Shown here: in pieces, positions 1,497 through 15,245 of the stretch
Numbering within the stretch: position 1 is the stretch's first letter
Layout: every line of letters starts with the position of its first letter
Source: a virus
IMG/VR virus record: IMGVR_UViG_3300032820_000155
Coordinates: 1-20,570 of that record
DNA: 20,570 nt
Strand: one strand, 5' to 3'
The notes under the pieces: generated by a model
Database searches by the model: none
What the model was told of the DNA's origin: nothing
Seen by the model: the letters and a program-made list of their open reading frames with translations, nothing else
Position numbers and translations under genes: made by a program

Positions 1497-4378
1497 GAAC
1501 CAGAACAGGTTACTCGTTTCGCCACTCTGTTGGCCATTTACGAGACGTCATTGCTAGATTGCAAAAATGCAATTATTCTGCAGCACCTATCACTGACAGA
1601 GCCTCCACCTTTGGCTGGGTAAAATGGAATCACTTGTGTGAAGATAAAAAGATTCGCCCAGTGTTCGGAATAGAATTGGCCGTAACTGATAGCATCAATG
1701 CTAAACGCCCAACAGTTGATCATTGGGTGTTTCTTGCTCAAAATGACATCGGCGACATCAATCGTCTAACTGAGATAGCCACTAGACAATTCCGCTATCA
1801 GCCATTGCTGACTTACGAACAAGCCTGTCATGCTCCAGGTGTATTCAAGATCATGGGATATAAATCTCAACTTGATCACGTTGATCACGGCACAGATTTG
1901 TTTGCTGGGCTTTCACCAGCTTGTTCTCGTGGATATGTCACTGCCATCAAGAACAAGAAGATCCCCTTCTTGGCTGTTGGGGAGAATGTATTTACCATTC
2001 CTGAGCAAAATGGTTTTTATGAAGTTGTTGCTGGTAGAAATAGCTCAATGCAAAGTTACCCACAGCACATACTTACGCAAGACGAGTGGGAAGAAGCTGT
2101 ATCTTATGTAGGATTTTCTAAGACGCAACTTAATGATATTTGGAAAAATAGTCGACAGATACTTAAAAATTGCACCGCTAAGCTTAAGCATGGCAAGCTG
2201 CTCGCTCCAGAACGGCCAGTGCCTCTACTCAAGATGTGCGAGAAGGGGGCAGAGAAGCTTGGAGTTAATTTGAAAGATTCAATTTATCGAAAGCGTCTTC
2301 ACCATGAGCTAACACTAATTGAAGAAAAAGAGTATGAAGACTATTTTTATATCGTTTCAGATATTTGTGAATTTGCTCGTTCTCGAATGATTGTCGGTCC
2401 TGCTCGTGGCTCTAGTTGCGGGAGCCTTGTTTGCTACTTGCTTGGAATTACCACTGTTGATCCCATTCCTCATGGTCTCATATTTGAACGATTCATTGAT
2501 ATCAACCGTAACGATCTTCCAGACATCGATATAGATTTTTCTGATCAGCATCGCCACATGGTCTTTAAATACATGTCTGACAAGTACGGCGAAAATAGGG
2601 TAGCAAGACTTGGCACTGTGGCGATGTACAAATCTCGCTCAGCGCTTAGCGAGTCTGGTGCTGCTCTGAGTGCACCCAGATGGATGTGTGATGCAGTTGC
2701 TGAATCTTTGATTGAACGATCTAGTGGTGATTCTCGTGCACTTCTCACACTTGAAGACACACTCAAAACAATGCCAGCAGGGAAAGAGTTACTTGAAAAG
2801 TATCCAGCCATGATCGTAGCAGCGTCAATGGAAGGCCACCCACGTCATTACTCTCAGCATGCTGCTGCTGTTGTGATTGCCGAAAAGCCCATCACAGATT
2901 TTGTAGCCGTTGATCATCGTTCTGGTGCAACCATGTGTGACAAGTATGACGCTGAAGCTATCAACCTCCTGAAGATTGATGCGCTGGGTCTGACACAGTT
3001 GTCTGTATTTGAAGATGCGCTGGACATGGCTGGTTTGGCACGAGACACGCTGGAGAACTTATCGCTCGACGATCAGGATTCGTTCGAAGTACTTAATAAA
3101 GGGCATTTCGCTGGCATCTTCCAGTTTAATGGCATGGCGCTACAATCAATTTGCAAGCAATTTGAAGTCACTGACTTTAATGATATTGTCCAAGTTACAG
3201 CCCTAGGTCGCCCTGGACCTTTGGCCAGTGGCGGTGCGCATGAGTGGATTCGACGTAAGAATGGTATCAATAGCGTAACCTACCCGCATCCAGTATTTGA
3301 GCCTTATCTGAATGACACACTTGGCATCGTTCTGTACCAAGAACAGGTAATGGAGATTGGTCGCAATATTGGCGGACTCGATTGGGGACAGGTTACTGCT
3401 TTGCGCAAAGCCATGAGCCGATCACTGGGAACAGAATACTTTGATCAATTTGGGGATCCCTGGAAGAAGGGAGCAATTGCCAAGGGAGTGAACCCAAATG
3501 ATGCCAACAAAGTTTGGGACGATCTTTGTGCTTATGGAGCATGGTCATTTAATAAATCTCACTCTGTTGCATATGGTCTTATTTCCTACTGGTGCTGTTG
3601 GCTTAAGGCTCATCATCCTTTTGAATTTGCTGCAGCTACCCTGTCCCACGAAAAGGATCCAGATAGGCAGATACAGTTGCTCCGTGAAATTGTTTCTGAA
3701 GGATACAGCTATGAACCGTTCTCCCCAGAGTTAAGTGGAGAGGCATGGACAGTTGATTATAGGGAAGTTGATGGCGAGCTTTTAGAACAACCTGTGCTGA
3801 TTGGCCCATTGACAAATATCAAAGGTATTGGGCCAAAGACGCTGGCAGCAATACTTGATGCGCGGAAGAATAATGTGCCATTGCCTGAGAAAATTCAGAA
3901 AATGCTAAGTAAGGATATTGTCACGCCGATCGATACATTATACCCAATAGGTGATGCCTTTAAACGACTCATTCCTGATCCCAGCGCACGCAACATAATC
4001 ACTCCTCCAACTCCGATCATTGATATTAAGATCATGGAGAAAGATTATGAAGTGATGGTTTTCTGCACAACATCCAAGATAAATCCACGTGATGAGAATG
4101 AAGTGATTAATGTTCAACGCAGAGGCTACGAAATCAAGGATGGGCCAACAGCCTCACTAAATTTGCAGTTGACTGATGACACAGATACTGTGTTTGGCAA
4201 GATTGATCGTTTCAAATATCTCAAAATGGGAAAGCCAATTGTTGACAGAGGACGGCCAGGTAAATCTCTGTACGCTGTTAAAGGGGTCGTCAGAGGAGGT
4301 GGAACATTCCGTATGATACTGATTAAGCAACTGCGTTATATAGGGGACGTTGATGGGGGATCAAACAGCATTGGCTGA
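1490..4378 (+). CDS. DNA polymerase III alpha subunit-like (DnaE-type) phage polymerase
   Basis: 962 residues, shorter than bacterial DnaE (about 1,160). The TTG at 1490 is the only usable start before the N-terminal PHP region; the first internal Met is far inside it. Domains in order: a PHP domain (about 1-200) in which the usual HxH motif after the first strand is replaced (LRTRTGYS where E. coli has LRVHSDYS), so it is probably not a nuclease; a palm with ARGSSCGSL (about 306-314) and PDIDIDF (344-350), which supplies the paired catalytic aspartates; the third acidic residue D497 in KIDALGL; fingers with GIFQFNG and ALGRPGPLASGG; then IKGIGPKTLAAI (helix-hairpin-helix) and an OB-like C-terminal segment (about 880-955). 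It makes the phage replicative polymerase, presumably proofread by the nearby DEDDh exonuclease. No clamp or clamp loader is visible in the window. Confidence 0.95.
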   Translation: MLRTRTGYSFRHSVGHLRDVIARLQKCNYSAAPITDRASTFGWVKWNHLCEDKKIRPVFGIELAVTDSINAKRPTVDHWVFLAQNDIGDINRLTEIATRQFRYQPLLTYEQACHAPGVFKIMGYKSQLDHVDHGTDLFAGLSPACSRGYVTAIKNKKIPFLAVGENVFTIPEQNGFYEVVAGRNSSMQSYPQHILTQDEWEEAVSYVGFSKTQLNDIWKNSRQILKNCTAKLKHGKLLAPERPVPLLKMCEKGAEKLGVNLKDSIYRKRLHHELTLIEEKEYEDYFYIVSDICEFARSRMIVGPARGSSCGSLVCYLLGITTVDPIPHGLIFERFIDINRNDLPDIDIDFSDQHRHMVFKYMSDKYGENRVARLGTVAMYKSRSALSESGAALSAPRWMCDAVAESLIERSSGDSRALLTLEDTLKTMPAGKELLEKYPAMIVAASMEGHPRHYSQHAAAVVIAEKPITDFVAVDHRSGATMCDKYDAEAINLLKIDALGLTQLSVFEDALDMAGLARDTLENLSLDDQDSFEVLNKGHFAGIFQFNGMALQSICKQFEVTDFNDIVQVTALGRPGPLASGGAHEWIRRKNGINSVTYPHPVFEPYLNDTLGIVLYQEQVMEIGRNIGGLDWGQVTALRKAMSRSLGTEYFDQFGDPWKKGAIAKGVNPNDANKVWDDLCAYGAWSFNKSHSVAYGLISYWCCWLKAHHPFEFAAATLSHEKDPDRQIQLLREIVSEGYSYEPFSPELSGEAWTVDYREVDGELLEQPVLIGPLTNIKGIGPKTLAAILDARKNNVPLPEKIQKMLSKDIVTPIDTLYPIGDAFKRLIPDPSARNIITPPTPIIDIKIMEKDYEVMVFCTTSKINPRDENEVINVQRRGYEIKDGPTASLNLQLTDDTDTVFGKIDRFKYLKMGKPIVDRGRPGKSLYAVKGVVRGGGTFRMILIKQLRYIGDVDGGSNSIG

Positions 4379-4502
4379 TAGTGTTAAGGAGCTTGGCCAG
4401 TGGCTATCAAAACTTACAAATGGTGGAAAGCACAATCCGCAAATAGCAAAGGTTCTTGAAAGAGCCAGAGAGGCATTGAGGAATGAAGGTAAAAACACTT
4501 GA
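4353..4502 (+). CDS. Small 49-aa ORF bridging polymerase and primase-helicase
   Basis: ATG at 4353 with AGGGGA a few bases upstream; it reads 49 codons to a TGA at 4500-4502. It overlaps the polymerase 3' end by 26 bases and the primase start by 20, and fills what would otherwise be the only gap in this tightly packed block. The product starts MGDQTALADSVKELGQWLSK, with a predicted helix, a Gly-Gly turn (TNGGKHNPQ) and a second helix (IAKVLERAREALRNEG), so it looks like a folded helical hairpin. No family is recognised. Support is from context, spacing and amphipathic composition; chance is possible at this length. Confidence 0.6.
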   Translation: MGDQTALADSVKELGQWLSKLTNGGKHNPQIAKVLERAREALRNEGKNT

Positions 4503-6699
4503 TGATCTGCCAAGCACCAGCGCCTATCTCACACGCATAGGTGCAGAGGCCAGATCATTACGCACAGCTGTGATCAGGGAAACGCATGGTCATTATTGGA
4601 AGGATGTAGCTGTCATCCGTTTTTCTCCTGATGGGGAAATCAAATGCACAGATTGGCAATACAACCCAACAGACCTTGAAGCGGAAGCTATCAAAAAGGA
4701 ATTTGCTGAAGCTACTTTTCCTCAGCTGCTCAAACTCAAACGGATCGTCAAGCCTCCAAAAATGATGAAAGAGGCTGACTCTAGCGACATTTTTGAATTC
4801 AGAGATGAAACAGATTCTATCATCATGGTCCAAGTTAGAATTGAGCGAGATGATGGAGACAAGAATTATGTCCCATGGACTTATTGGGACGATCATGAGT
4901 GGAGAGCTTGTGAACCTGACGGACCATTGCCATTGTTCAACGCTCATCTTTTGGCAGATGCTCACTCAGTTTTCATTCATGAAGGAGCGAAGGCTGCACG
5001 CCATTGTCAATGGATGGTGGAGGCAGCTACCCCAGACGCAAAGGCTGCTCTGAGGAGCCACCCTTGGGGTTCAGAGCTACAATATTCCGTGCATATTGGG
5101 TGGATCGGTGGCGCTATGAGCCCATATCGCACCGACTGGAAGGCTTTGAAACGTGCAGGAGTTAACAGGGCATATGTGGTGGCTGACAATGATGAACCAG
5201 GCAGGGCAGCAGTACCAGCGATAGCACAGCAATTAAGAATCCCGACATTTTTGATTCAATTCACTAATGAGTTTCCTGCATCGTTTGATTTGGCAGATGA
5301 ATTCCCTAAAGTGCTGTGGGGCAAGGCAGACGGTTCTCGACACTACATCGGTCCCCAATTCAGAGATTGTCTGCATCCTGCCACTTGGGCTACCGATCTG
5401 ATACCTAATTTAAAGGGCAAACCGACACCTGCCTTGCGTGACAGTTTCCGGAACATGTGGGCTTATGTTGAGGAGGCAGATTTATTTGTTTGTACTGAAA
5501 TGCCAGAGATTCTGCGACCGGAAAGCATTCTCAATAAGATGTTGGCTGCATTCTCCCATGCCAGCGAGACGACTCGTTTGATTGTTAAAGCGTACAGAGG
5601 TCGCTCAGCACGCATCTGCTATCGTCCGGATCACCAAGGTCTTCTGGTGACGTTTCGTGGTTCATCAGCGATTAACTTGCACACACCTACCACCATAAAA
5701 TCAGCTAAGGGCAATGCTAAGCCATGGACAGATTTTCTTGAATATATGTTTGTGAAGCCAGATGAGTGCGAAAATGTAAAACGATGGTGTGCTACGCTAA
5801 TAGCTCGTCCAGAAATAAGAATTGGCTATGGTTTGCTTCTCGTCAGCGAGCGCCAAGGGATAGGTAAGACAACTCTAGGCTCGTACATCTTAGCGCCACT
5901 CGTTGGGCTGCAAAACGTGGGGTATCCCAGTGAAAATGATATAGCACTCAGTGGATTCAACGATTGGGTGGCAAATAAGCGTCTAGTCGTTGTTCATGAA
6001 ATTTACTCTGGCGCAAGCTGGAAAGCTTACCATGCCATGAAAGCAGTGATCACTGATAGGGACATCACAGTTAATCAGAAATACATGAGGCCATACACCA
6101 TTGAGAATTGGTGCCATGTTTTAGCTTGTTCAAACTCAATGCGTGCTCTGAAAATGGAAAATGATGATCGTAGATGGTTCTATCCTGAAGTCTCAGAAGT
6201 TCCATGGCCCAAGGAGAAATTTATTGAACTAAGGTTATGGATAGAAAGTGGCGGCTTGAGCATCATCAAAAACTGGGCAGAGAAATACAAGGATTATATA
6301 GGGCCAGCCGAAAGATCACCAATGACAGAGCGTAAGAGAGAAATGATTGAAGGCTCTCGATCAGAAGCACAACGTGAAGCAGTAGCATTGGCTGAAGCAT
6401 TGAAGGATGCTGGTCGGCCAGCCACCCTCTTAATCAAAGATATCATTGGGTGGGTGCGTGCTGCTTCACAAGGCAGAGTGTTTGATTCAGATTATGAATT
6501 ACGCAAAGCCATGATTGAAGCTGGTGTGCGCTGCTGGCCTAAGCGAATGAAGTTCCATGGACGATTGCAATATGTTATGCTTAATGATGAGCTATGGGAT
6601 GAAGTCTCACGTATCTCTGCAACAGAGGATGCACAAATAGCCAAGCTGTTGCGTGATAATGTAGTCAAACCTAATGAACTGATGGAGCATGATCTTTGA
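4483..6699 (+). CDS. Primase-helicase: Toprim domain plus SF3/D5-like AAA+ helicase
   Basis: 738 residues. The N-terminal part has a Toprim fold: FIHEGAK with E167, then VVADNDEPG with D235 and D237 as the metal-binding DxD. No CHC2-type zinc cluster is visible. The C-terminal half is an AAA+ ATPase of the DUF5906/D5/SF3-like kind: Walker A SERQGIGKTT (455-464, Lys462), an acidic Walker B-like strand ending H505-E506, a sensor-like ACSN with N551, and a DDRRWF segment (561-566) with a possible arginine finger. Residues after about 600 form a charged helical tail. Such proteins unwind DNA and make primers for the replicative polymerase encoded just upstream. ATG 4483 was chosen because it sits just after TTGAGG and overlaps the 49-aa ORF; the exact primase chemistry is inferred from the Toprim motifs. 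Confidence 0.9.
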   Translation: MKVKTLDDLPSTSAYLTRIGAEARSLRTAVIRETHGHYWKDVAVIRFSPDGEIKCTDWQYNPTDLEAEAIKKEFAEATFPQLLKLKRIVKPPKMMKEADSSDIFEFRDETDSIIMVQVRIERDDGDKNYVPWTYWDDHEWRACEPDGPLPLFNAHLLADAHSVFIHEGAKAARHCQWMVEAATPDAKAALRSHPWGSELQYSVHIGWIGGAMSPYRTDWKALKRAGVNRAYVVADNDEPGRAAVPAIAQQLRIPTFLIQFTNEFPASFDLADEFPKVLWGKADGSRHYIGPQFRDCLHPATWATDLIPNLKGKPTPALRDSFRNMWAYVEEADLFVCTEMPEILRPESILNKMLAAFSHASETTRLIVKAYRGRSARICYRPDHQGLLVTFRGSSAINLHTPTTIKSAKGNAKPWTDFLEYMFVKPDECENVKRWCATLIARPEIRIGYGLLLVSERQGIGKTTLGSYILAPLVGLQNVGYPSENDIALSGFNDWVANKRLVVVHEIYSGASWKAYHAMKAVITDRDITVNQKYMRPYTIENWCHVLACSNSMRALKMENDDRRWFYPEVSEVPWPKEKFIELRLWIESGGLSIIKNWAEKYKDYIGPAERSPMTERKREMIEGSRSEAQREAVALAEALKDAGRPATLLIKDIIGWVRAASQGRVFDSDYELRKAMIEAGVRCWPKRMKFHGRLQYVMLNDELWDEVSRISATEDAQIAKLLRDNVVKPNELMEHDL

Positions 6700-6700
6700 T

Positions 6701-6931
6701 ATGAAAACATGGACGCTATTTATTCTCCTGATGTGGGAACCTGTTCCGGGTGAATCTGGACAGGAACATGAATTGCTTAAGTTTGTTGACATCTCCTCTC
6801 AGGCTATATGCAAAAATCTTGGGAGGCGTTTGAGTCATCATTATAGAGCTGACGGTGTGGCTGTATCAATGCCTGAGTGCATTGGTCCATTTCCACCGGC
6901 ACAGAAGCAAGAGGAGGGTTGGAACGATTAA
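6701..6931 (+). CDS. Small protein with hydrophobic N-terminus, unknown function
   Basis: 76 residues from ATG 6701; an in-frame ATG at 6689 would add four residues but sits only one base after the GGAG at 6684-6687, so 6701 is preferred. The N-terminus MKTWTLFILLMWEP is a short hydrophobic stretch like a signal or membrane anchor. Two cysteines (37 and 60) lie in a small domain ending in a proline-rich charged tail. Small phage proteins of this plan (MxxW-hydrophobic start, CxxxGxxL, a later Cys) are frequent, and are possibly exported and disulfide-bonded, but have no assigned role. It follows the primase stop by one base and its own stop overlaps the next ATG as TAATG. Confidence 0.65.
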   Translation: MKTWTLFILLMWEPVPGESGQEHELLKFVDISSQAICKNLGRRLSHHYRADGVAVSMPECIGPFPPAQKQEEGWND

Positions 6932-7011
6932 TGGGAATTCTTGAGGCTATATTAACAGTGGTGGGCCCTATATTATTAGATTTTCTCTATCAAGTGGCGA
7001 TGATGCCATGA
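6931..7011 (+). CDS. 26-aa single-pass membrane peptide
   Basis: ATG 6931 overlaps the upstream TAA by one base, with AGGAGGG about 12 bases before it, and its TGA overlaps the next ATG as ATGA. Both junctions are the same type used by proven neighbours, which is why I call it a gene despite the length. The product is almost entirely hydrophobic: GILEAILTVVGPILLDFLYQ, followed by VAMMP, with acidic residues only at positions 5 and 17, so it looks like one amphipathic membrane helix with a central Gly-Pro kink. It could be a holin-like or membrane-targeting peptide, or a translational coupler for the nuclease gene. The function is unknown. Confidence 0.55.
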   Translation: MGILEAILTVVGPILLDFLYQVAMMP

Positions 7012-7457
7012 TCATCGATACCAGCAAAATACGTAACGAAAGTGATTTGCGCAAATGGCTTGAGCGCCAGGCACATGGCAATTTATATTGCATCGAGAAT
7101 AAGGGAAAAGGAGGAACACTCGGATTTCCTGACACGCTCATACCAGTTGGATCTGTGCTTGTGCCATTTGAACTCAAAATGGCGAAATATGATATGAAAA
7201 CAGGCCATTGGAGAATTAACTTGCGTGCACAACAAAAACAAGTGATGCGGCGATTTGAATCTGAAAAAGTGCAGGCGTGGGTTCTGGCTGCTATGACTGG
7301 GGGAGTTGATAAACGAATGTGCCATGCTTGGGTTGCACATAATTATTCTGGTGGGATTCCAGATGAAGAATGGCTGCCAGTTTACTCTTTAGCTGATATG
7401 ATCAAATACTATCATGCTGGTGTCCAAGTTGAGATGGAAAAACACAGTATTCAATGA
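7008..7457 (+). CDS. PD-(D/E)xK nuclease, VRR-NUC-like
   Basis: 149 residues from ATG 7008 (ATGA overlap). The catalytic pattern is visible: GFPD with D42, FELK with E55 and K57, and a downstream glutamine-rich helix LRAQQKQ (Q75/Q76), with an N-terminal E11 possible as an extra ligand. The spacing and the G-F-P-D ... E-x-K ... L-x-x-Q-Q order match small stand-alone VRR-NUC enzymes found in phage replication modules. Those in this family cut branched or flapped DNA, so the likely role is resolving replication or recombination intermediates before packaging. It is the last gene of the replication block and is followed by the large intergenic gap. Confidence 0.83.
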   Translation: MIIDTSKIRNESDLRKWLERQAHGNLYCIENKGKGGTLGFPDTLIPVGSVLVPFELKMAKYDMKTGHWRINLRAQQKQVMRRFESEKVQAWVLAAMTGGVDKRMCHAWVAHNYSGGIPDEEWLPVYSLADMIKYYHAGVQVEMEKHSIQ

Positions 7458-7475
7458 TATCATCGTGTTAAATGG

Positions 7476-7563
7476 TTCCACAGTTCGTAATTTTCTAGGA
7501 TCTCAAAACTCTATGGAGATTTAGAAAGAATATAAACTTAGGAAAGTTTCGGAAACTGTGGAA
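7476..7563. repeat. 10-bp inverted repeat with 68-bp spacer
   Basis: TTCCACAGTT at 7476-7485 is the exact reverse complement of AACTGTGGAA at 7554-7563. A related pair, GGTTCC at 7474-7479 and GGAACC at 7577-7582, overlaps the outer flank. The arms are too far apart for a simple terminator and have no T-run after them; they look more like paired protein-binding sites. Confidence 0.55.
7545..7557. repeat. Compact operator-like dyad AGTTTC-G-GAAACT
   Basis: Two perfect 6-bp arms separated by a single base, overlapping the right arm of the wider inverted repeat. The one-base spacer rules out an RNA hairpin of the usual kind, so binding by a dimeric protein is the likelier role. It lies 8 bases after the TATAAA element. 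Confidence 0.4.
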
Positions 7564-7597
7564 AAATAAGAACCTTGGAACCTTTGTGTCTGAACAG

Positions 7598-7609
7598 TGC
7601 AGATCTGCA
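7598..7609. repeat. 12-bp perfect palindrome TGCAGATCTGCA
   Basis: A gapless 12-bp palindrome in the intergenic region, 34 bases before the ATG at 7643. It is a candidate binding site for a dimeric regulator or terminase; it has no second copy in the region that I can see. Confidence 0.4.
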
Positions 7610-7642
7610 TGAAGTCTTAAAACACTTTCCTTCTTTGTCAAG

Positions 7643-7732
7643 ATGGAGAATACTTCTGTTCCGCTAGCTGCTAACAGCGTTGAGAACAGCCTTGCAACCA
7701 ACTGCATCCGTTCAAGAGGTTTTGCCTCCTAA
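7643..7732 (+). CDS. 29-aa ORF running into the small terminase; possible true 5' end of it
   Basis: ATG 7643 begins MENTSVPLAANSVENSLATN, and the frame ends ...GCC-TCC-TAA at 7730-7732. The small terminase frame is +1 relative to it and overlaps its second half. If the ribosome skips T7730 after TCC, it continues directly into AAA-AAA-GAT of the terminase frame, giving a 143-aa fusion. UCC followed by a stop codon is the arrangement used in antizyme +1 frameshifting, and a slow stop also drives RF2 frameshifting. No strong ribosome-binding site is seen before the ATG. Alternatives: a chance ORF, or a one-base assembly error. Confidence 0.35.
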   Translation: MENTSVPLAANSVENSLATNCIRSRGFAS

Positions 7733-8075
7733 AAAAGATGCGACGCATCTTGCCAAGCACAGATTTAAGCCTGGCAGGTCAGGAAATCCTTCTGGCCGTC
7801 CAAAATCCAAACCATTCAAAGAAGAACTGGCCAAGGCCATCGCCAAGGCGACAAAAAACAGTCGTGGCAAGACATCAACCAATCTTGCACAGATCGCCGA
7901 CTCTTTAGTCAGAGAAGCAAAATCTGGTGATGTTCAAGCCATCAAAGAAATTGCCGACAGACTTGATGGCAAGGTTGTTCAGGTGGTTGAAGGTGATGTT
8001 GACAATCCTGTGGTGACAGAGGTCAGGTATCTTGTCGTTCATGCAACACTTGAGGATATGAATGATGCCGCTTGA
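7680..8075 (+). CDS. Terminase small subunit-like protein (DUF5681)
   Basis: Up to 131 residues from TTG 7680; other in-frame starts are TTG 7692 and 7722, none with a convincing ribosome-binding site, and an in-frame TAG at 7665-7667 closes the frame upstream (see the ORF at 7643). The basic motif FKPGRSGNPSGRPK (residues 29-42 from the first TTG) is the DUF5681 signature found in many phage proteins encoded directly before the large terminase. After it comes a basic helical stretch and an acidic, beta-prone C-terminus. Small terminases bind the packaging site and load the large subunit. Assignment rests on the motif and on its place immediately before, and 14 bases overlapping, the large terminase. 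Confidence 0.72.
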   Translation: MRTALQPTASVQEVLPPKKDATHLAKHRFKPGRSGNPSGRPKSKPFKEELAKAIAKATKNSRGKTSTNLAQIADSLVREAKSGDVQAIKEIADRLDGKVVQVVEGDVDNPVVTEVRYLVVHATLEDMNDAA

Positions 8076-9348
8076 TGGTACGGTTATCACACCTCAGATT
8101 TCTGATGCCTACCAGCCATTTTTGAAGCCATCAAGATACAAAGCTGTTAAGGGTGGACGAGGATCAGGCAAGTCTCATTTCTTTGCACAAGCAGCAGTCG
8201 TCAATTGTGCAGCTGTGTTGGGCACTCGTGTTGTTTGCATTCGTGAAGTTCAGAAGACATTGCGTGAATCGGCAAAGCGTCTGATTGAGGATAAAATTGA
8301 AACACTTGGTGCAAAAGGCTTTAAGGTTAAGAACGATGAGATTGAAACGCCCGGTGGCGGTGTTATCATTTTTAACGGAATGCAGGATCACACTGCGCAA
8401 TCAATCAAGTCTCTTGAAGGTTTTAAAGTGGCTTGGGTTGAAGAGGCACAAACCTTGAGCAAGACGTCGCTTGAGTTGCTTCGGCCAACTATTCGTATTG
8501 ATGACTCGGAGATTTGGGCTAGTTGGAATCCTCGAAGTGCTGGTGATCCGATTGATGCATTCTTTTCCGGTGAGCATCCTCCAGAGAATGCTATCATTCG
8601 CCATATAAACTTTGATCAGAATCCATGGTTCACTTCTGTTCTCAAGGCAGAGCGCATTTATGACTTTGAGTCAAATCCTCATAGGTATGCGCACATTTGG
8701 CTGGGTGAGTATGAACCGATGGTTGCTGGCGCTATTTGGGACAGGGCAACTCTTCATGCCAATCGTCGCCGAGAAGCTCCTCAGCTTGAACGGATATTGG
8801 TCGGTGTTGATCCAGCAATCACAAGCCCAGAGACAAATGCCAGAGGAACTCCTGATTATCATGGCATTGGTGTAGCGGCATTGGGGGCAGACGACAGAGG
8901 CTATGTGCTTGAAGACGCATCACGACAAGGTGGCCCAAAGGATTGGGCAGAGCGGACCATCGCCACATTTGATAAGTGGGAGGCAGATGCAGTTGTCGTT
9001 GAGGTGAATCAGGGTGGCGACATGGTCAAGCACACGTTGCAGTCGTACCGTAGGGAGTTGCCCATCATTGAGGTGCGAGCGACACGAGGCAAGCATGTCA
9101 GGGCAGAACCGATTAGTGCACTTTACAAGTTGAATCGCATCAGCCATGTCGGAACACATAGGGAGCTTGAGGACCAGTTATGTCGTTTCACCAACCACGG
9201 TTATGAGGGACCATCCGGCGAGAGTCCAGACAGGGCAGAAGCAATCATTTGGGCATTGTCAGAATTGTTTCCTGCATTGACACAGTCAACTCAGAAAATG
9301 AATCATGAAGAGAACTTTCCTGTAGTTGAGGGAGCGTGGATGGGATGA
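8062..9348 (+). CDS. Terminase large subunit (ATPase plus nuclease)
   Basis: 428 residues from ATG 8062 (a second ATG is at 8065), with GAGG seven bases upstream. The ATPase domain has Walker A GGRGSGKS (31-38, Lys37), an adenine-region REVQKTLRESAKR segment, and Walker B VAWVEEAQ with E127/E128. The C-terminal RNase H-like nuclease shows D250 in GVDPAI, E314 in VVVEVNQGGD and D390 in SPDRAEAI, the three acidic metal ligands. This is the packaging motor that cuts concatemers and drives DNA into the prohead through the portal encoded next. The overall pattern is PBSX/Terminase_3-like in the ATPase with a Terminase_6C-like nuclease; it is shorter than P22 gp2 (499 aa). Confidence 0.96.
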   Translation: MMPLDGTVITPQISDAYQPFLKPSRYKAVKGGRGSGKSHFFAQAAVVNCAAVLGTRVVCIREVQKTLRESAKRLIEDKIETLGAKGFKVKNDEIETPGGGVIIFNGMQDHTAQSIKSLEGFKVAWVEEAQTLSKTSLELLRPTIRIDDSEIWASWNPRSAGDPIDAFFSGEHPPENAIIRHINFDQNPWFTSVLKAERIYDFESNPHRYAHIWLGEYEPMVAGAIWDRATLHANRRREAPQLERILVGVDPAITSPETNARGTPDYHGIGVAALGADDRGYVLEDASRQGGPKDWAERTIATFDKWEADAVVVEVNQGGDMVKHTLQSYRRELPIIEVRATRGKHVRAEPISALYKLNRISHVGTHRELEDQLCRFTNHGYEGPSGESPDRAEAIIWALSELFPALTQSTQKMNHEENFPVVEGAWMG

Positions 9349-11603
9349 GCCAGGAAAAAACAGTGGCAGATGATGTCATCAAAGATGCTATGGAGCGATT
9401 TGCTGAATCCAATTCCTCAACAGAGGAGGATCGTACCGATTATAAGAATGATTGGAAGTTTGCTCGTTTGGCAGATCAATGGCCAGCCGCCATTGCCAAG
9501 CAACGAGTTCAAGAAGCTCGTCCGGTTTTAGTCATCAACAAATTACCAGCTTTAATTAGATCGGTGGTGAATGAGTCACGTCAGAATAAACCATCCATTA
9601 GAGTTTCTCCAGTGGACAATGATGCTGATGAAGATTCGGCTGAGGTTATTGGCGGATTGATCCGTGCTGTTGAACGTGAATCGGGTGCTGATCTTGCTTA
9701 TGACACTGCGATTGATCAAGCAGTCACAGGTGGTTTTGGATTTTTCCGAGTGTCAATTGACTTTGCACATGAGGAGACATTTGATCTTGAGGCGAGAATT
9801 GAGCGCATCCCTTATGCCCCAATGGTCCATTGGGATCCCAGCTCAACAACTTTTGATGCCAGCGATTGGGATTACGCATTTATTTCAGAGGTGATGACCA
9901 AGCGTCAATACAATGTGAGATATCCTAAAGGCTCCAATGTTCCATTTGATGGATCAACCTCTGATGCTTCATTTGGTCAGGGCATTGATGAAGAGTCTAT
10001 TCGCATAGCAGAGTATTTCTTGCGTGAAGAAAAAGAGCGTAACATTCTTATGCTTGAGGTGCCGAACCCACAGACAGGTGAGATGGATTTGCAAGTGGTC
10101 AGAGAGGATTTGCTACCAGATCTGGCCAAGGCATTCTTTGATGCTTTACAAATTGATGGGTCTGGCAATGACAAGGAACTTATTTCATCGTTTATGGACG
10201 CCAGTGGTGTTAAAGAGATACGCAGACGCAAAGTTACATACCATAAAGTAACACGCCGTATCATAAATGGAGTTGAGGTCCTTGATGAGGGTGAGTGGCC
10301 GGGCACAATGATACCTATTTGCCCAGTGTGGGGAGATGAAACCTATGATGAACAGGGCAGACGCCATTTTCGTTCAATGATTAGGGACGCTAAAGATCCG
10401 CAGGTGATGTTTAATTTTTGGCGATCAGCAACAACTGAATTGGTAGCGATGGCACCTAAGAGCCCATGGATCGGTCCAAAAGGATTCATTCCCAAAGGTC
10501 ATGAGACAAAGTGGGCCAGCGCCAATACCCGTTCTCACCAATACCTTGAATATGATAAGAATGCTGGTGAGGCACCGCGCAGACAGGAGTTTGCAGGTGT
10601 CCCGACGGGTGCCTTGCAGGAAGCCATGAGTGCTGCTGATGATATGAAATCAATCACTGGAATTTTCGACTCATCACTTGGAGCACGGTCCAATGAAACG
10701 AGCGGAAAAGCTATTCTCGCAAGGGAACGACAAGGAGACGTCAGCAACTTCCACTTCATCGACAATCTCACAAGAGCAATTCGTTATGCCGGAGAGATTC
10801 TTATCGAGATTATACCATCTGTGTACTCGACGAGATCCGCTATTCGTATTTTGGGTGAGGATCAGAAAGAGAATATCGTCAATCTTACACAGCAAGATGG
10901 GGGATCAAGTCAAAAGGGACCAGATGGAGGTCCGGCATTGTACAATCTGAGTGTGGGCAAATATGATGTAACTGTGAGCACTGGGCCATCATTCTCCACC
11001 CAGAGGGAAGAAACACGTGAAACTCTTATTGAGATCATGCGACAGGTTCCTGATGCTGCTGCATTTTTGGGTGATGTGTTACTTGATCATATGGATTTCG
11101 TTGGTGCTGATAAAGTTGCCAAGCGTCTTCAGCTTATATTGCCGGAGGCGATTCGCAAAGCTGAAGAAGCTGAGACAGACAGCGACAATCCAGAAGCTGC
11201 AGCCCTCCTTCAAGAATTGCAAGCTAAGGACCAGGAATTTGCTCAAATAAAAGATCAGGTGATGTCTGAAATTGCAGAGTTGCAGAAAGAATTGGAATCA
11301 GAAAAGTTCAATAATGAAGCTGCAACAATCAAAGCGCAGGGTGATGTAAAGAAAATTGAGAATGATTCTAGAGAACTGGCTCTTAAGGAAAGTGCAGCAG
11401 TTCCTCCAAAATTGCAATGGGAATATGACAGACAATTAGCTCAGGATGATCGTAACTGGAGATCGGGTCAGAATGAGCTCGACAGAATGACTGATTTAGC
11501 CAAGGTCATTCTTAATAAGTCAATTGATGGCGAATTGCCTGAGGATCAAGAGGCAGCGATTAGCGAGGCTTTACGTCAAGCTGCAGAGGTGCTTCCACAA
11601 TGA
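9345..11603 (+). CDS. Portal protein, P22-type
   Basis: 752 residues from ATG 9345, chosen over the in-frame GTG at 9336 because GAGGGAG (9328-9334) is well spaced and ATGA overlaps the terminase stop. The sequence matches the P22 portal family: an N-terminal DWKFARLADQW, a KLPALIRSVVNESRQNKPSI segment, a GGFGFFRVSIDF stretch, HWDPSSTTFD, and a WRSATTELVAMAPKSPW region. Length is close to P22 gp1 (725 aa). The C-terminal part (about 615-685) is a long heptad-like coiled coil rich in Glu, Gln and Lys, corresponding to the barrel/crown region of long P22-type portals. It forms the dodecameric ring at the packaging vertex and the DNA exit channel. Confidence 0.95.
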   Translation: MSQEKTVADDVIKDAMERFAESNSSTEEDRTDYKNDWKFARLADQWPAAIAKQRVQEARPVLVINKLPALIRSVVNESRQNKPSIRVSPVDNDADEDSAEVIGGLIRAVERESGADLAYDTAIDQAVTGGFGFFRVSIDFAHEETFDLEARIERIPYAPMVHWDPSSTTFDASDWDYAFISEVMTKRQYNVRYPKGSNVPFDGSTSDASFGQGIDEESIRIAEYFLREEKERNILMLEVPNPQTGEMDLQVVREDLLPDLAKAFFDALQIDGSGNDKELISSFMDASGVKEIRRRKVTYHKVTRRIINGVEVLDEGEWPGTMIPICPVWGDETYDEQGRRHFRSMIRDAKDPQVMFNFWRSATTELVAMAPKSPWIGPKGFIPKGHETKWASANTRSHQYLEYDKNAGEAPRRQEFAGVPTGALQEAMSAADDMKSITGIFDSSLGARSNETSGKAILARERQGDVSNFHFIDNLTRAIRYAGEILIEIIPSVYSTRSAIRILGEDQKENIVNLTQQDGGSSQKGPDGGPALYNLSVGKYDVTVSTGPSFSTQREETRETLIEIMRQVPDAAAFLGDVLLDHMDFVGADKVAKRLQLILPEAIRKAEEAETDSDNPEAAALLQELQAKDQEFAQIKDQVMSEIAELQKELESEKFNNEAATIKAQGDVKKIENDSRELALKESAAVPPKLQWEYDRQLAQDDRNWRSGQNELDRMTDLAKVILNKSIDGELPEDQEAAISEALRQAAEVLPQ

Positions 11604-12487
11604 CCCCACTTCAATATTTTCTAATGACTTCACATGGACGTGATGATACACGTGGACCCACCACAGAATATGAGACGATGTTTCCTGGTCAAGTAAGCGC
11701 TCAAGGTGGGCCTGGATGGCGACCGGATGACTCAACACAGCCAGATGCAGCACTCAGAAATGTCAGATCCCCCAATAGATGGGGATGGGGATCTGGTTGG
11801 CCATCAAGAGAACAGTTAACATCAGGTGCTGGAAGTTTAATTGGAAGTTTACTCGGGCCAGCCGGGCAAGCCATTGGAGCAGGTGTTGGGGGTTACGCAG
11901 GAGGTATGAATGCTTCCAAGGCAGCGGGCACTGCTGCGGGAACTGCAATAGGTACGGCTCTAATGCCCGGCATCGGCTCAATGGTAGGCGGTTGGCTAGG
12001 TGGTAAACTTGGGGATCAGATTGGTAGTGGTACTGGGACAATAGACTATAGCGTACCTACTAGCTTGGAGGATGAACGGGCAATACACGGAACCTCAGCT
12101 CCAATCACTAGACCAGCCAGCCCAGCCAGCAGAGCATCAGCAATTGATTGGTACCAACCAACAAGTATTGCTGGTCCAGCTATGTATGCAAATCCGGCTG
12201 GACCTGCTGGCATGCCATGGAACGAGCTTCAGCAAATTCGGACATCAGAACTTGGAGGCGGACCTGGATGGTCGCCAACGGGTTATAATCGCACCGCTGC
12301 ATCACCAGTACCCTATGCGGAAAGTGTTTCGGATTTACAAACAATTCGGGCGACACCAACCCAAACGACTACGCCGTCCGCGCCACGAGTCGTCTCGGCA
12401 CCAACCCGCGCCGACACCGAGCGATATGATGAATGGCGACAAAATGAACCCTATGCCGGTTATGAACCGGGAGACCCTTGGGCATGA
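11600..12487 (+). CDS. Glycine-zipper, Pro/Ser-rich protein between portal and scaffold
   Basis: 295 residues, ATGA-coupled to the portal. Residues about 73-147 form a long glycine/alanine stretch with small residues spaced by three (GxxxG pattern: GPAGQAIGAGVGG, AAGTAAGTAIG, GSMVGGWLGGKLG), a glycine-zipper able to insert in or cross a membrane. The flanks are hydrophilic and disordered-looking, rich in Pro, Ser and Thr. A GGPGWxP motif occurs twice (36-42 and 220-226). I do not recognise a named family. A glycine zipper inside a virion gene cluster suggests an ejected protein that helps DNA cross the host envelope, but its place next to portal and scaffold could also mean a minor head protein. 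Confidence 0.85.
   Translation: MTPLQYFLMTSHGRDDTRGPTTEYETMFPGQVSAQGGPGWRPDDSTQPDAALRNVRSPNRWGWGSGWPSREQLTSGAGSLIGSLLGPAGQAIGAGVGGYAGGMNASKAAGTAAGTAIGTALMPGIGSMVGGWLGGKLGDQIGSGTGTIDYSVPTSLEDERAIHGTSAPITRPASPASRASAIDWYQPTSIAGPAMYANPAGPAGMPWNELQQIRTSELGGGPGWSPTGYNRTAASPVPYAESVSDLQTIRATPTQTTTPSAPRVVSAPTRADTERYDEWRQNEPYAGYEPGDPWA
12113..12130 (+). repeat. 9-bp tandem duplication CCAGCCAGC x2
   Basis: Two exact adjacent copies inside the glycine-zipper gene, encoding the repeated Pro-Ala-Ser of its linker. This is a simple slippage-type expansion in a disordered segment. Confidence 0.7.
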
Positions 12488-13689: not shown

Positions 13690-14931
13690 ATGGCTAATAC
13701 TCTGTTAACTGCGAGCATAATCGCTAAGGCGGCTGTGCTTCAGCTTGACAATAACCTCGTTATGGCCAAGAAAGTATTTCGTGGCTATGAAGGGGAATTT
13801 GCCAAGAACATAAATGGGTATGAGATTGGGGATTCGATCTCAGTCAGACGCCCAATGGACTTCACAGTTCGAGACGGTGCTGTGATGAATGTTCAAGACA
13901 CAACAGAAGGCAAATTCACGCTAACTGTTGATAAGCGTAAGGGTGTTGACTTTGAGTTCACGTCACAAGAGTTGACGTTGAGCATCAAAGAGTTATCTGA
14001 GCGTGTCATAAAACCAGCAATGATTCAGCTGGCTAACCAGGTTGACACTGATCTGATGGCACTCTATAAAGACGTTCCCTCATGGGTCGGTACTCCAGGT
14101 CAAACGATCAACAGTTTTGCTGATCTCGCCTTGGGACCGGAGCGGATGGATGAAATGGCAAATCCGGTTGATGGCCGGAGTGCAGTTCTTTCACCGGCAG
14201 ATCATTGGGGGATGGTTGGAAATCTGACGGGATTGTACATTGAACGCTCTGCTAATAGTGCGTATCGAAACGGTTCCCTCGGAAATGTTGGCGGACTTGA
14301 AGTTCTGATGTCTCAGAATGTACCGACACACACAGTCGGAACAAACTGGGCAACAGGCTCCACACCTCTGACGAATGGAGCTGCGCAGGAAACTACGTAT
14401 GCAGCTTCAAAGGACACAGATACAATGTCCTTGATCACAGATGGTTGGAGCTCTGGTGCGACTTCATTGAAGCAAGGTGATGTTTTCACCATTGCCAATG
14501 TGAATGCAGTGAATCCTGTAACAAAAGTCGATCTTGGCTTTTTGAAGCAGTTTGCCATCACTGCAGATATCAGCGATACATCAGGTGCGATCACGATGAC
14601 GATCACTCCTGCTGCGATCCTGACGGGTGCGCATCAGAACATTTCTGCCACAATTGCTGATGGTGCAGCACTAACTGAAGTTGGAACGGAAGCGACAGGC
14701 TATCGCCAGAATATGGTGTTCAATCAGAATGCTTTTGCTCTGGTTAGCGTGCCACTTGTTTCTCCTCCAGGTGCTGTAGATGTTGGACGTCAGTCATACA
14801 AAGGAACGAACGTTCGAGTGATTCCGGTGTATGATGGCACGAATGACATTTCCAAATGGAGACTTGACATTTTGTATGGTGTCAAGACTGTTGACTCTCG
14901 TTTGGCCCATCGTGTTAGTGGTACTGCTTAA
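13690..14931 (+). CDS. Major capsid (coat) protein, P22 gp5-like
   Basis: 413 residues (P22 gp5: 430), with GGAG seven bases before the ATG. The start MANTLLTASIIAKAAVLQL and the following VFRGYEGEF, GDSISVRRPMDFTVRDG and a DFEFTSQELTLSIKEL segment match the P22 coat family (HK97 fold: N-arm, E-loop, spine helix). A central block of about 110 residues (roughly 220-330, rich in Thr, Gly and Asp, with strand-turn character) sits where P22 coat carries its insertion domain, and the A-domain resumes with RQNMVFNQNAFALVSVPL. It builds the icosahedral shell around the scaffold. High-level expression is expected; the gene is followed by a short gap and a small structural gene. Confidence 0.95.
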   Translation: MANTLLTASIIAKAAVLQLDNNLVMAKKVFRGYEGEFAKNINGYEIGDSISVRRPMDFTVRDGAVMNVQDTTEGKFTLTVDKRKGVDFEFTSQELTLSIKELSERVIKPAMIQLANQVDTDLMALYKDVPSWVGTPGQTINSFADLALGPERMDEMANPVDGRSAVLSPADHWGMVGNLTGLYIERSANSAYRNGSLGNVGGLEVLMSQNVPTHTVGTNWATGSTPLTNGAAQETTYAASKDTDTMSLITDGWSSGATSLKQGDVFTIANVNAVNPVTKVDLGFLKQFAITADISDTSGAITMTITPAAILTGAHQNISATIADGAALTEVGTEATGYRQNMVFNQNAFALVSVPLVSPPGAVDVGRQSYKGTNVRVIPVYDGTNDISKWRLDILYGVKTVDSRLAHRVSGTA

Positions 14932-14987
14932 CTTTGAATGATTGACATCCTGCTTAATTTGGTGGGGCGTCAGTTAGGAGAACTATC

Positions 14988-15245
14988 ATGACTGTTGAGT
15001 ACATTGGTGATGGAAATACAGATGGAACCTGCCTTGGGCAGTCTTCATCTGAGCTTATTGCCTTTCACGGTGCAACACCTATTGCACAACCTGCTGCGGC
15101 AGCCCAAGCGGCTGCTCCTGCGGGTGGCACAGGTGCCACTGCTGGGGCATACGATACCGCCTCAAACCGGAATGACATGATCGACTTGGTCAACGCCATG
15201 AGAACGGTGTTGGTTAATAATGGTCTCATGAAGGGTTCGGCGTAA
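14988..15245 (+). CDS. Small head decoration/head-fibre-like protein
   Basis: 85 residues with AGGAGA before the ATG. The N-terminal GTCLGQSSSELIAFHGATPIAQP matches a motif (G-x-x-LGQS..., FxGxTPxxQP) common in small phage head-fibre or decoration proteins; then comes an Ala/Pro/Gly linker (AAAAQAAAPAGGTGATAG) and a helical C-terminus NRNDMIDLVNAMRTVLVNNGL. Its place directly after the coat gene and before a strong terminator fits a capsid-associated protein made in quantity. The family is recognised by motif only. Confidence 0.68.
   Translation: MTVEYIGDGNTDGTCLGQSSSELIAFHGATPIAQPAAAAQAAAPAGGTGATAGAYDTASNRNDMIDLVNAMRTVLVNNGLMKGSA

Follow-up and report, generated by a model that had tools for sequence, protein, structure and literature searches.

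A 26-codon reading frame at a VapE/nuclease junction: a candidate ribosome relay in a lineage-specific viral insert

What is the role of a 26-codon reading frame that is joined end to end with both of its neighbours? The frame lies in a 20,570-base virus record (IMGVR_UViG_3300032820_000155, positions 1 to 20,570; this whole stretch of analysed DNA is called the window), in which Pfam recognizes DNA polymerase III alpha, VapE/DUF5906, a terminase (Terminase_3) and a P22-like portal. The stop of the VapE gene (6699) and the start of a nuclease gene (7008) enclose an 80-aa ORF followed by the frame in question, the micro-ORF, for which a sequence-only reading had suggested three roles: a tiny holin-like membrane peptide, a membrane anchor or a translational coupler for the nuclease. 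The elements of the site are as follows.

4483-6699, + strand: VapE/DUF5906-type gene (helicase-primase type), the upstream anchor of the site (Pfam PF19263, E 1.4e-19)
6689-6931, + strand: 80-aa ORF, family unknown, with a short hydrophobic N-terminus and two Cys
6912-6917, + strand: AGGAGG, Shine-Dalgarno (SD)-like, within the 80-aa gene and 13 nt 5′ of the micro-ORF ATG
6931-7011, + strand: micro-ORF of 26 codons with a TAATG 5′ end and an ATGA 3′ end, from direct sequence reading
6998-7017, + strand: perfect 7-bp hairpin with the nuclease ATG inside its 6-nt loop, from a stem search
7008-7457, + strand: PD-(D/E)xK nuclease, Hjc/VRR-NUC-like fold, 149 aa, with a poor SD of its own, from profile and model matches

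Direct reading bore out a 26-aa frame bounded by TAATG and ATGA. At the 5′ junction (6929-6933), the TAA of the 80-aa gene (6929-6931) shares a base with the ATG of the micro-ORF (6931-6933); at the 3′ junction (7008-7011), the TGA of the micro-ORF (7009-7011) overlaps the nuclease ATG (7008-7010). Both are stop/start overlaps of the coupled-pair type (4 or 1 nt). The AGGAGGG said to precede the frame is also present, but its AGGAGG lies 13 nt from the ATG, a long spacing compared with the 5-8 nt seen in 14 of the 21 other start rows scored. The pairing of AGAGGAGGG amounts to -11.8 kcal/mol, the strongest among the 22 start rows scored, versus a best value of -3.8 kcal/mol for the nuclease. 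AGGAGG as such occurs 11 times in the window against an expectation of 8.5, which is no enrichment.

The predicted product of the micro-ORF, MGILEAILTVVGPILLDFLYQVAMMP (26 aa), had been described as almost purely hydrophobic. This is fair with regard to a GRAVY of 1.57 and a best 19-residue mean of 1.96, but the peptide also holds E5, D17 and Q21; K and R are absent, and its C-terminus reads QVAMMP. Holins possess one or more transmembrane segments with a basic or charged tail. A holin-like lysis peptide would agree with the shortness and hydrophobicity of the product; the lack of any basic residue argues against it, as does the position of the micro-ORF between VapE and nuclease, outside lysis-type genes, which are grouped at 8034-9552 of locus L068, a record that matches the window exactly in the parts compared. 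The lysis role is thus the part of the earlier proposal that we abandon as highly improbable. The L068 stretch is itself a possible lysis cassette, with roles assigned partly by eye: it contains two proteins of 88 and 117 aa that bear hydrophobic stretches, a DUF5675 protein, an 82-aa protein (Rz-like, at an E of 0.087 only) and a 48-aa ORF with LSGC.

How readily could such a frame arise by accident? In 200,000 first-order Markov spacers of 76 nt with the nuclease ATGA held fixed, an ORF overlapping both ends appeared 5,523 times (2.8%), because the ATGA comes free: the nuclease begins with ATG ATC. Equal hydrophobicity was seen in 0.22% of these double-overlap ORFs and in 0.14% of random open frames. 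Among the 149 ATG-started ORFs of 20-60 aa on both strands of the window, the micro-peptide ranks third in hydrophobicity, after two ORFs that are out of frame within longer ones. Its codon score falls at the 43rd percentile of real coding pieces and exceeds 482 of 483 open off-frame pieces; tested against Markov frames it reached P = 0.032 only (rank 8 of 149). By synonymous choice alone, the micro-ORF is indistinguishable from non-coding pieces (index 0.675, the 15th percentile of coding pieces, with 38% of off-frame pieces equal or higher).

One explanation is that the 76-nt spacer is open by chance, that the nuclease initiates otherwise, and that neither a peptide function nor coupling exists. 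The 2.8% of random spacers with a double overlap, the two more hydrophobic out-of-frame ORFs, the modest codon score, the synonymous choice and the failure to detect a homolog of the peptide (see below) all fit this explanation. It has to accept, however, that geometry, hydrophobicity and codon score coincide in one frame, the other two containing stops, and that a strong SD-like site stands before the micro-ORF while that of the nuclease is weak; we regard it as rather unlikely. The micro-ORF is probably translated, though this is not certain, each single feature being only moderately unlikely by chance. Among 15 gap rows checked, a second nearly bridged gap was found at 14931-14988, where a 17-aa ATG ORF ends in ATGA; it starts 7 nt past the upstream stop, and the gene downstream has its own SD.

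The gene that the micro-ORF leads into appears, from profile and structure-model matches, to encode a PD-(D/E)xK nuclease with an Hjc/VRR-NUC-like fold. An alignment (A3) of 29 of the 33 nuclease loci described below, from which L093, L104, L107 and L138 were left out since they run off the locus without a stop, shows G35, G39, D42, E55, K57 and Q76 to be invariant (the D, ExK and Q motif). Searched as a profile, A3 matched 4qbo (E 1.8e-7) and also 4qbn, both titled VRR_NUC, and a structure model (mean pLDDT 71.5) gave a Z of 9.5 to 1ob9, a Holliday junction resolving enzyme, and of 8.8 to 4qbn. Foldseek returned no match to this model at E 0.001 or better, and Pfam VRR_NUC was hit by 1 of the 29 members (E 0.013). 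In PHROGs, 13 of the 29 matched an endonuclease family and 14 of the 29 a family called DNA helicase. A Pfam GlfB_C match of the window nuclease alone (E 0.16) was rejected, and a scan of viral contigs with this single sequence gave no pattern match and no close relative. Regarding the start-codon hairpin, stems of 7 or more occur at 7 of the 1,379 start-like codons of the window, the nuclease ATG included; folding of the whole junction was not more stable than that of shuffled sequences (z -0.07 and 0.35).

Locus L002, which is related to the window through portal and terminase and was read apart from the VapE loci, has an ORF at 770-1264 with the start MIVLGVDPGKTGG, upstream of the terminase genes and in the place of the window's PD-(D/E)xK nuclease; judged by eye it is putatively RuvC-like. 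Between L002 and the window, it is possible that one resolvase has been exchanged for another (RuvC-like versus PD-(D/E)xK).

The sequence-only reading had looked to related phages for conservation of the frame and its two junctions. A VapE alignment search matched 95 viral loci, of which 80 were taken together with two loci from bacterial genomes, both without a nuclease match. These genomes are from a Methylobacterium and a Sphingomonas, and an alphaproteobacterial host for the virus would be a guess. In total, 88 VapE loci including the window were examined (76 distinct VapE sequences, four contigs being present twice), and the VapE gene of the window is 44-75% identical to its relatives. 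Of the 88, 49 gave a match to the nuclease profile, and these comprise 39 distinct VapE DNA sequences; the remaining 39 loci, in which a divergent nuclease may have escaped the profile, were screened for tiny hydrophobic ORFs only. After L064, L126 and L127 had been dropped as near duplicates from a set of 36, 33 nuclease loci including the window were left, forming 31 clusters at 85% identity, again with the window included. The two genes adjoin in four clusters (L062, L065, L080 and L091), with a spacing of -4 to +9 nt, and are separated by 120-2,519 nt in the other 27, including the window. Three of the four insert-free lineages display a direct VapE/nuclease overlap (ATGA in L062, TGATG in L080 and L091), and L065 has a strong SD of its own, 9 nt after VapE. 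The ORFs in the gaps differ mostly between lineages; by eye, tiny ORFs are common to L104 and L130, and a 61-aa ORF to L124 and L136.

The micro-ORF was detected in none of the 30 other lineages compared that carry the VapE-nuclease pair (4 direct, 26 with other DNA in between), which bears out in part the lack of conservation that the sequence-only reading had named as refuting it. Decay of the micro-ORF beside a retained 80-aa gene was not seen, because the 80-aa gene has no homolog in those lineages either. In a tblastn search of 155 loci with the micro-peptide and the 80-aa protein, the only full match was L001, which is the window itself, and the next best hits had E values of 1.8 and 1.4. 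Likewise, neither protein had homologs in phages (DNA and protein) or plasmids, a degenerate nine-residue pattern of the micro-peptide had no match in viral contigs, and a defence library search gave none. A match of the micro-peptide to NCBIfam RC1041 (11.7 bits, cut-off 90) was rejected as chance. For the 80-aa ORF, which could also start at 6701 to give 76 aa, family searches, phages, viral contigs, the 155 loci and the defence library revealed neither family nor homolog; a viral-contig scan produced 12 pattern matches of which none was confirmed, and plasmid matches at E 0.1-0.6 were read as chance. Since it was found in no relative searched, the micro-ORF is more likely to be a patch confined to this lineage than a conserved membrane protein.

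A peptide may still act without being conserved, e.g. as a single-helix membrane anchor or accessory effector co-produced with the 80-aa protein. The hydrophobicity given above is in keeping with this, and so is the order in L085, the closest to that of the window, in which VapE is followed by a 60-aa ORF with a hydrophobic start and Cys, a 41-aa peptide with a strong transmembrane stretch, and the nuclease; tiny hydrophobic ORFs also occur at the VapE-nuclease site of L086, L104 and L130. However, the parts of L085 cannot be aligned with those of the window, and homology of the 76-aa form of the upstream protein with the 60-aa protein was rejected on this ground; no sequence conservation was detected in the relatives searched, and two acidic and no basic residues are a poor fit to such a peptide. 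We consider an acting peptide unlikely. In L104 (5588-7581) and L130 (5575-6668), VapE-nuclease gaps of > 2 kb contain several tiny hydrophobic ORFs.

What recurs in the relatives is the overlap before the nuclease, not the sequence of the micro-ORF. Twenty of the 33 loci have it: the start assigned to the nuclease shares 4 or 1 nt with the stop of an upstream frame that stays open for 25 codons or more, such frames being selected by openness and only putatively genes. The count may be inflated by the choice made where several nuclease starts were possible. As background, the same overlap occurs at 1,602 of 15,064 start-like codons (10.6%) and, among codons internal to the nuclease, at 20 of 314. 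The other 13 loci lack such an overlap, and for L085 the 41-aa peptide, which ends 16 nt earlier, is more plausible than the 57-aa frame counted as overlapping. With a 76-nt gap, a nuclease SD of -3.8 kcal/mol and an overlap that recurs in relatives, coupling to the nuclease emerges as the best supported of the three roles proposed. Our preferred reading, to which we assign a probability of about 0.5, is that a lineage-specific insert occupies a translationally coupled junction between VapE and the resolvase-like nuclease, and that the micro-ORF relays ribosomes over the 76 nt.

In this relay, ribosomes would end the 80-aa gene at UAAUG and restart on the micro-ORF, perhaps helped by the AGGAGGG. 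They would translate its 26 codons, running into the hairpin at the nuclease start codon, terminate at the UGA within AUGA, and begin anew at the AUG of the nuclease; both the translation and the reinitiation are what we infer from the arrangement. The main effect of the micro-ORF would be to carry coupling across the gap, the peptide being secondary. With the 76-nt gap closed by the micro-ORF, a relay would explain together why both ends overlap, why the SD of the nuclease is poor and why no conservation is seen. It leaves the hydrophobicity unexplained, which may reflect chance or a peptide function. For a programmed frameshift fusing micro-peptide and nuclease, no slippery heptamer was visible by eye at 6998-7011.

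Published work bears on the length of the gap and on the SD. Termination-reinitiation is most efficient when the two genes overlap or lie very close together (PMC10666635, PMC12548453); a gap of about 20 nt all but eliminates coupling, for which the final 15 nt of the upstream gene suffice (PMC10666635). A 76-nt gap without the micro-ORF would thus weaken or break coupling. It need not be fatal, since one study with coupling over far larger spacings is cited in PMC12548453. The role of the AGGAGGG is ambiguous, because an SD near and upstream of UAAUG can, with a very short upstream ORF, divert released ribosomes from the downstream AUG, as described in PMC9955659.

How might the insert have arrived? 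Its two borders resemble each other.

6688-6701, + strand: border repeat, left copy, CATGATCTTTGATA, from alignment and a register test
7007-7020, + strand: border repeat, right copy, CATGATCATCGATA, 12/14 identical to the left copy

In start-codon register, a 12/14 agreement is reached by 14 of the 35,778 ATGA/GTGA context pairs of the window, this one included. Taken alone, the 14-nt imperfect repeat is only suggestive, because free local alignments reach an equal score in 166 and 133 of 2,863 other 70-mers and in 5 of 56 cross-pairings with other loci. The clearest case of a duplicated junction is L132, where a 22-nt direct repeat (20/22; 4059-4080 and 4244-4265) comprising an SD and GTGA flanks a 62-aa ORF situated between VapE and nuclease, its score being reached in 0 of 940 control windows. 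A weaker, gapped border repeat in L098 was reached in 0 of 1,098 controls. Over the 29 loci with a gap of at least 60 nt, to which border-repeat tests were applied, own borders were more alike than shuffled pairings (P = 0.0038), a result driven largely by L132 and L098; in most other loci border similarity was ordinary. The window's record holds one copy of the insert, and neither protein is duplicated in the 155 loci. An origin of the micro-ORF tail in the 3′ end of VapE was rejected, since the stretch shared with L062, GCGATGATG, spans 9 nt only. A broader and distinctly tentative idea, which we think improbable as it stands, is that the junction is a growth site of phage genomes, at which incoming accessory genes would use the stop/start overlap as their point of entry, copy it and thereby leave the resolvase coupled to its new upstream neighbour, with the 26-codon ORF as a minimal repair of the 76-nt gap; arrival by junction duplication is here something that we infer.

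The surroundings of the insert were also compared with record G001 (behind L003). Against window positions 3000-10600, G001 is 100% identical over 3000-4299 and 10504-10600, with a third stretch at 77%. It otherwise lacks window 4300-10503 and contains none of the insert, and is uninformative on the micro-ORF for that reason. The third stretch is intergenic in the window (7473-7587, between the nuclease and a DUF5681 gene) and corresponds to G001:19272-19387 (L068 about 12273-12388), where the copy adjoins a reverse-strand helicase ORF; it is a repeated intergenic element, perhaps with the role of a promoter or regulatory site. A promoter scan found 7 promoter-like sites versus 2.3 expected, which is not decisive, and a terminator scan found none.

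If the relay reading is true, some tiny hydrophobic phage ORFs are kept for the position at which ribosomes stop and not for their peptide, and caution is called for in counting such ORFs as membrane proteins. In addition, recurrent insertions at one coupled junction, with the border duplicated in L132, would offer a tractable model of phage gene gain, and of how genes are added without breaking the translation of their neighbours. In the literature on small phage ORFs and coupling mini-ORFs, covered incompletely and by titles and the opening of abstracts, we found no report of a VapE/micro-ORF/nuclease junction. The relay would be a device of known kind; of greater interest is the site itself, at which insertions recur.

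Three known systems invite comparison. Mycobacterial MIRUs insert at start codons and carry an ORF coupled at -4 to the displaced gene (PMC12548453), and the insert of the window may be like them in both respects. Unlike for a MIRU, no repeat family was found for it in its own record, in G001 or in the 155 loci, inserts at this site are mostly lineage-specific, and the repeat at its borders, imperfect and 14 nt long, is short. At the coat/lysis junction of the RNA phage GA, the gene downstream is presumably a full-length lysis gene, whereas the ORF restarted here has 26 codons and a distant SD. The two junctions share the same UAAUG and a restart without a well-placed SD (PMC9955659). Short ORFs have also been proposed to serve solely for ribosome delivery (PMC12548453). 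The micro-ORF differs from these upstream ORFs in that it sits inside a gene run, overlaps the preceding gene as well and is known here from sequence alone; it resembles them in being a short ORF whose stop overlaps the next start, before a weak downstream ribosome site.
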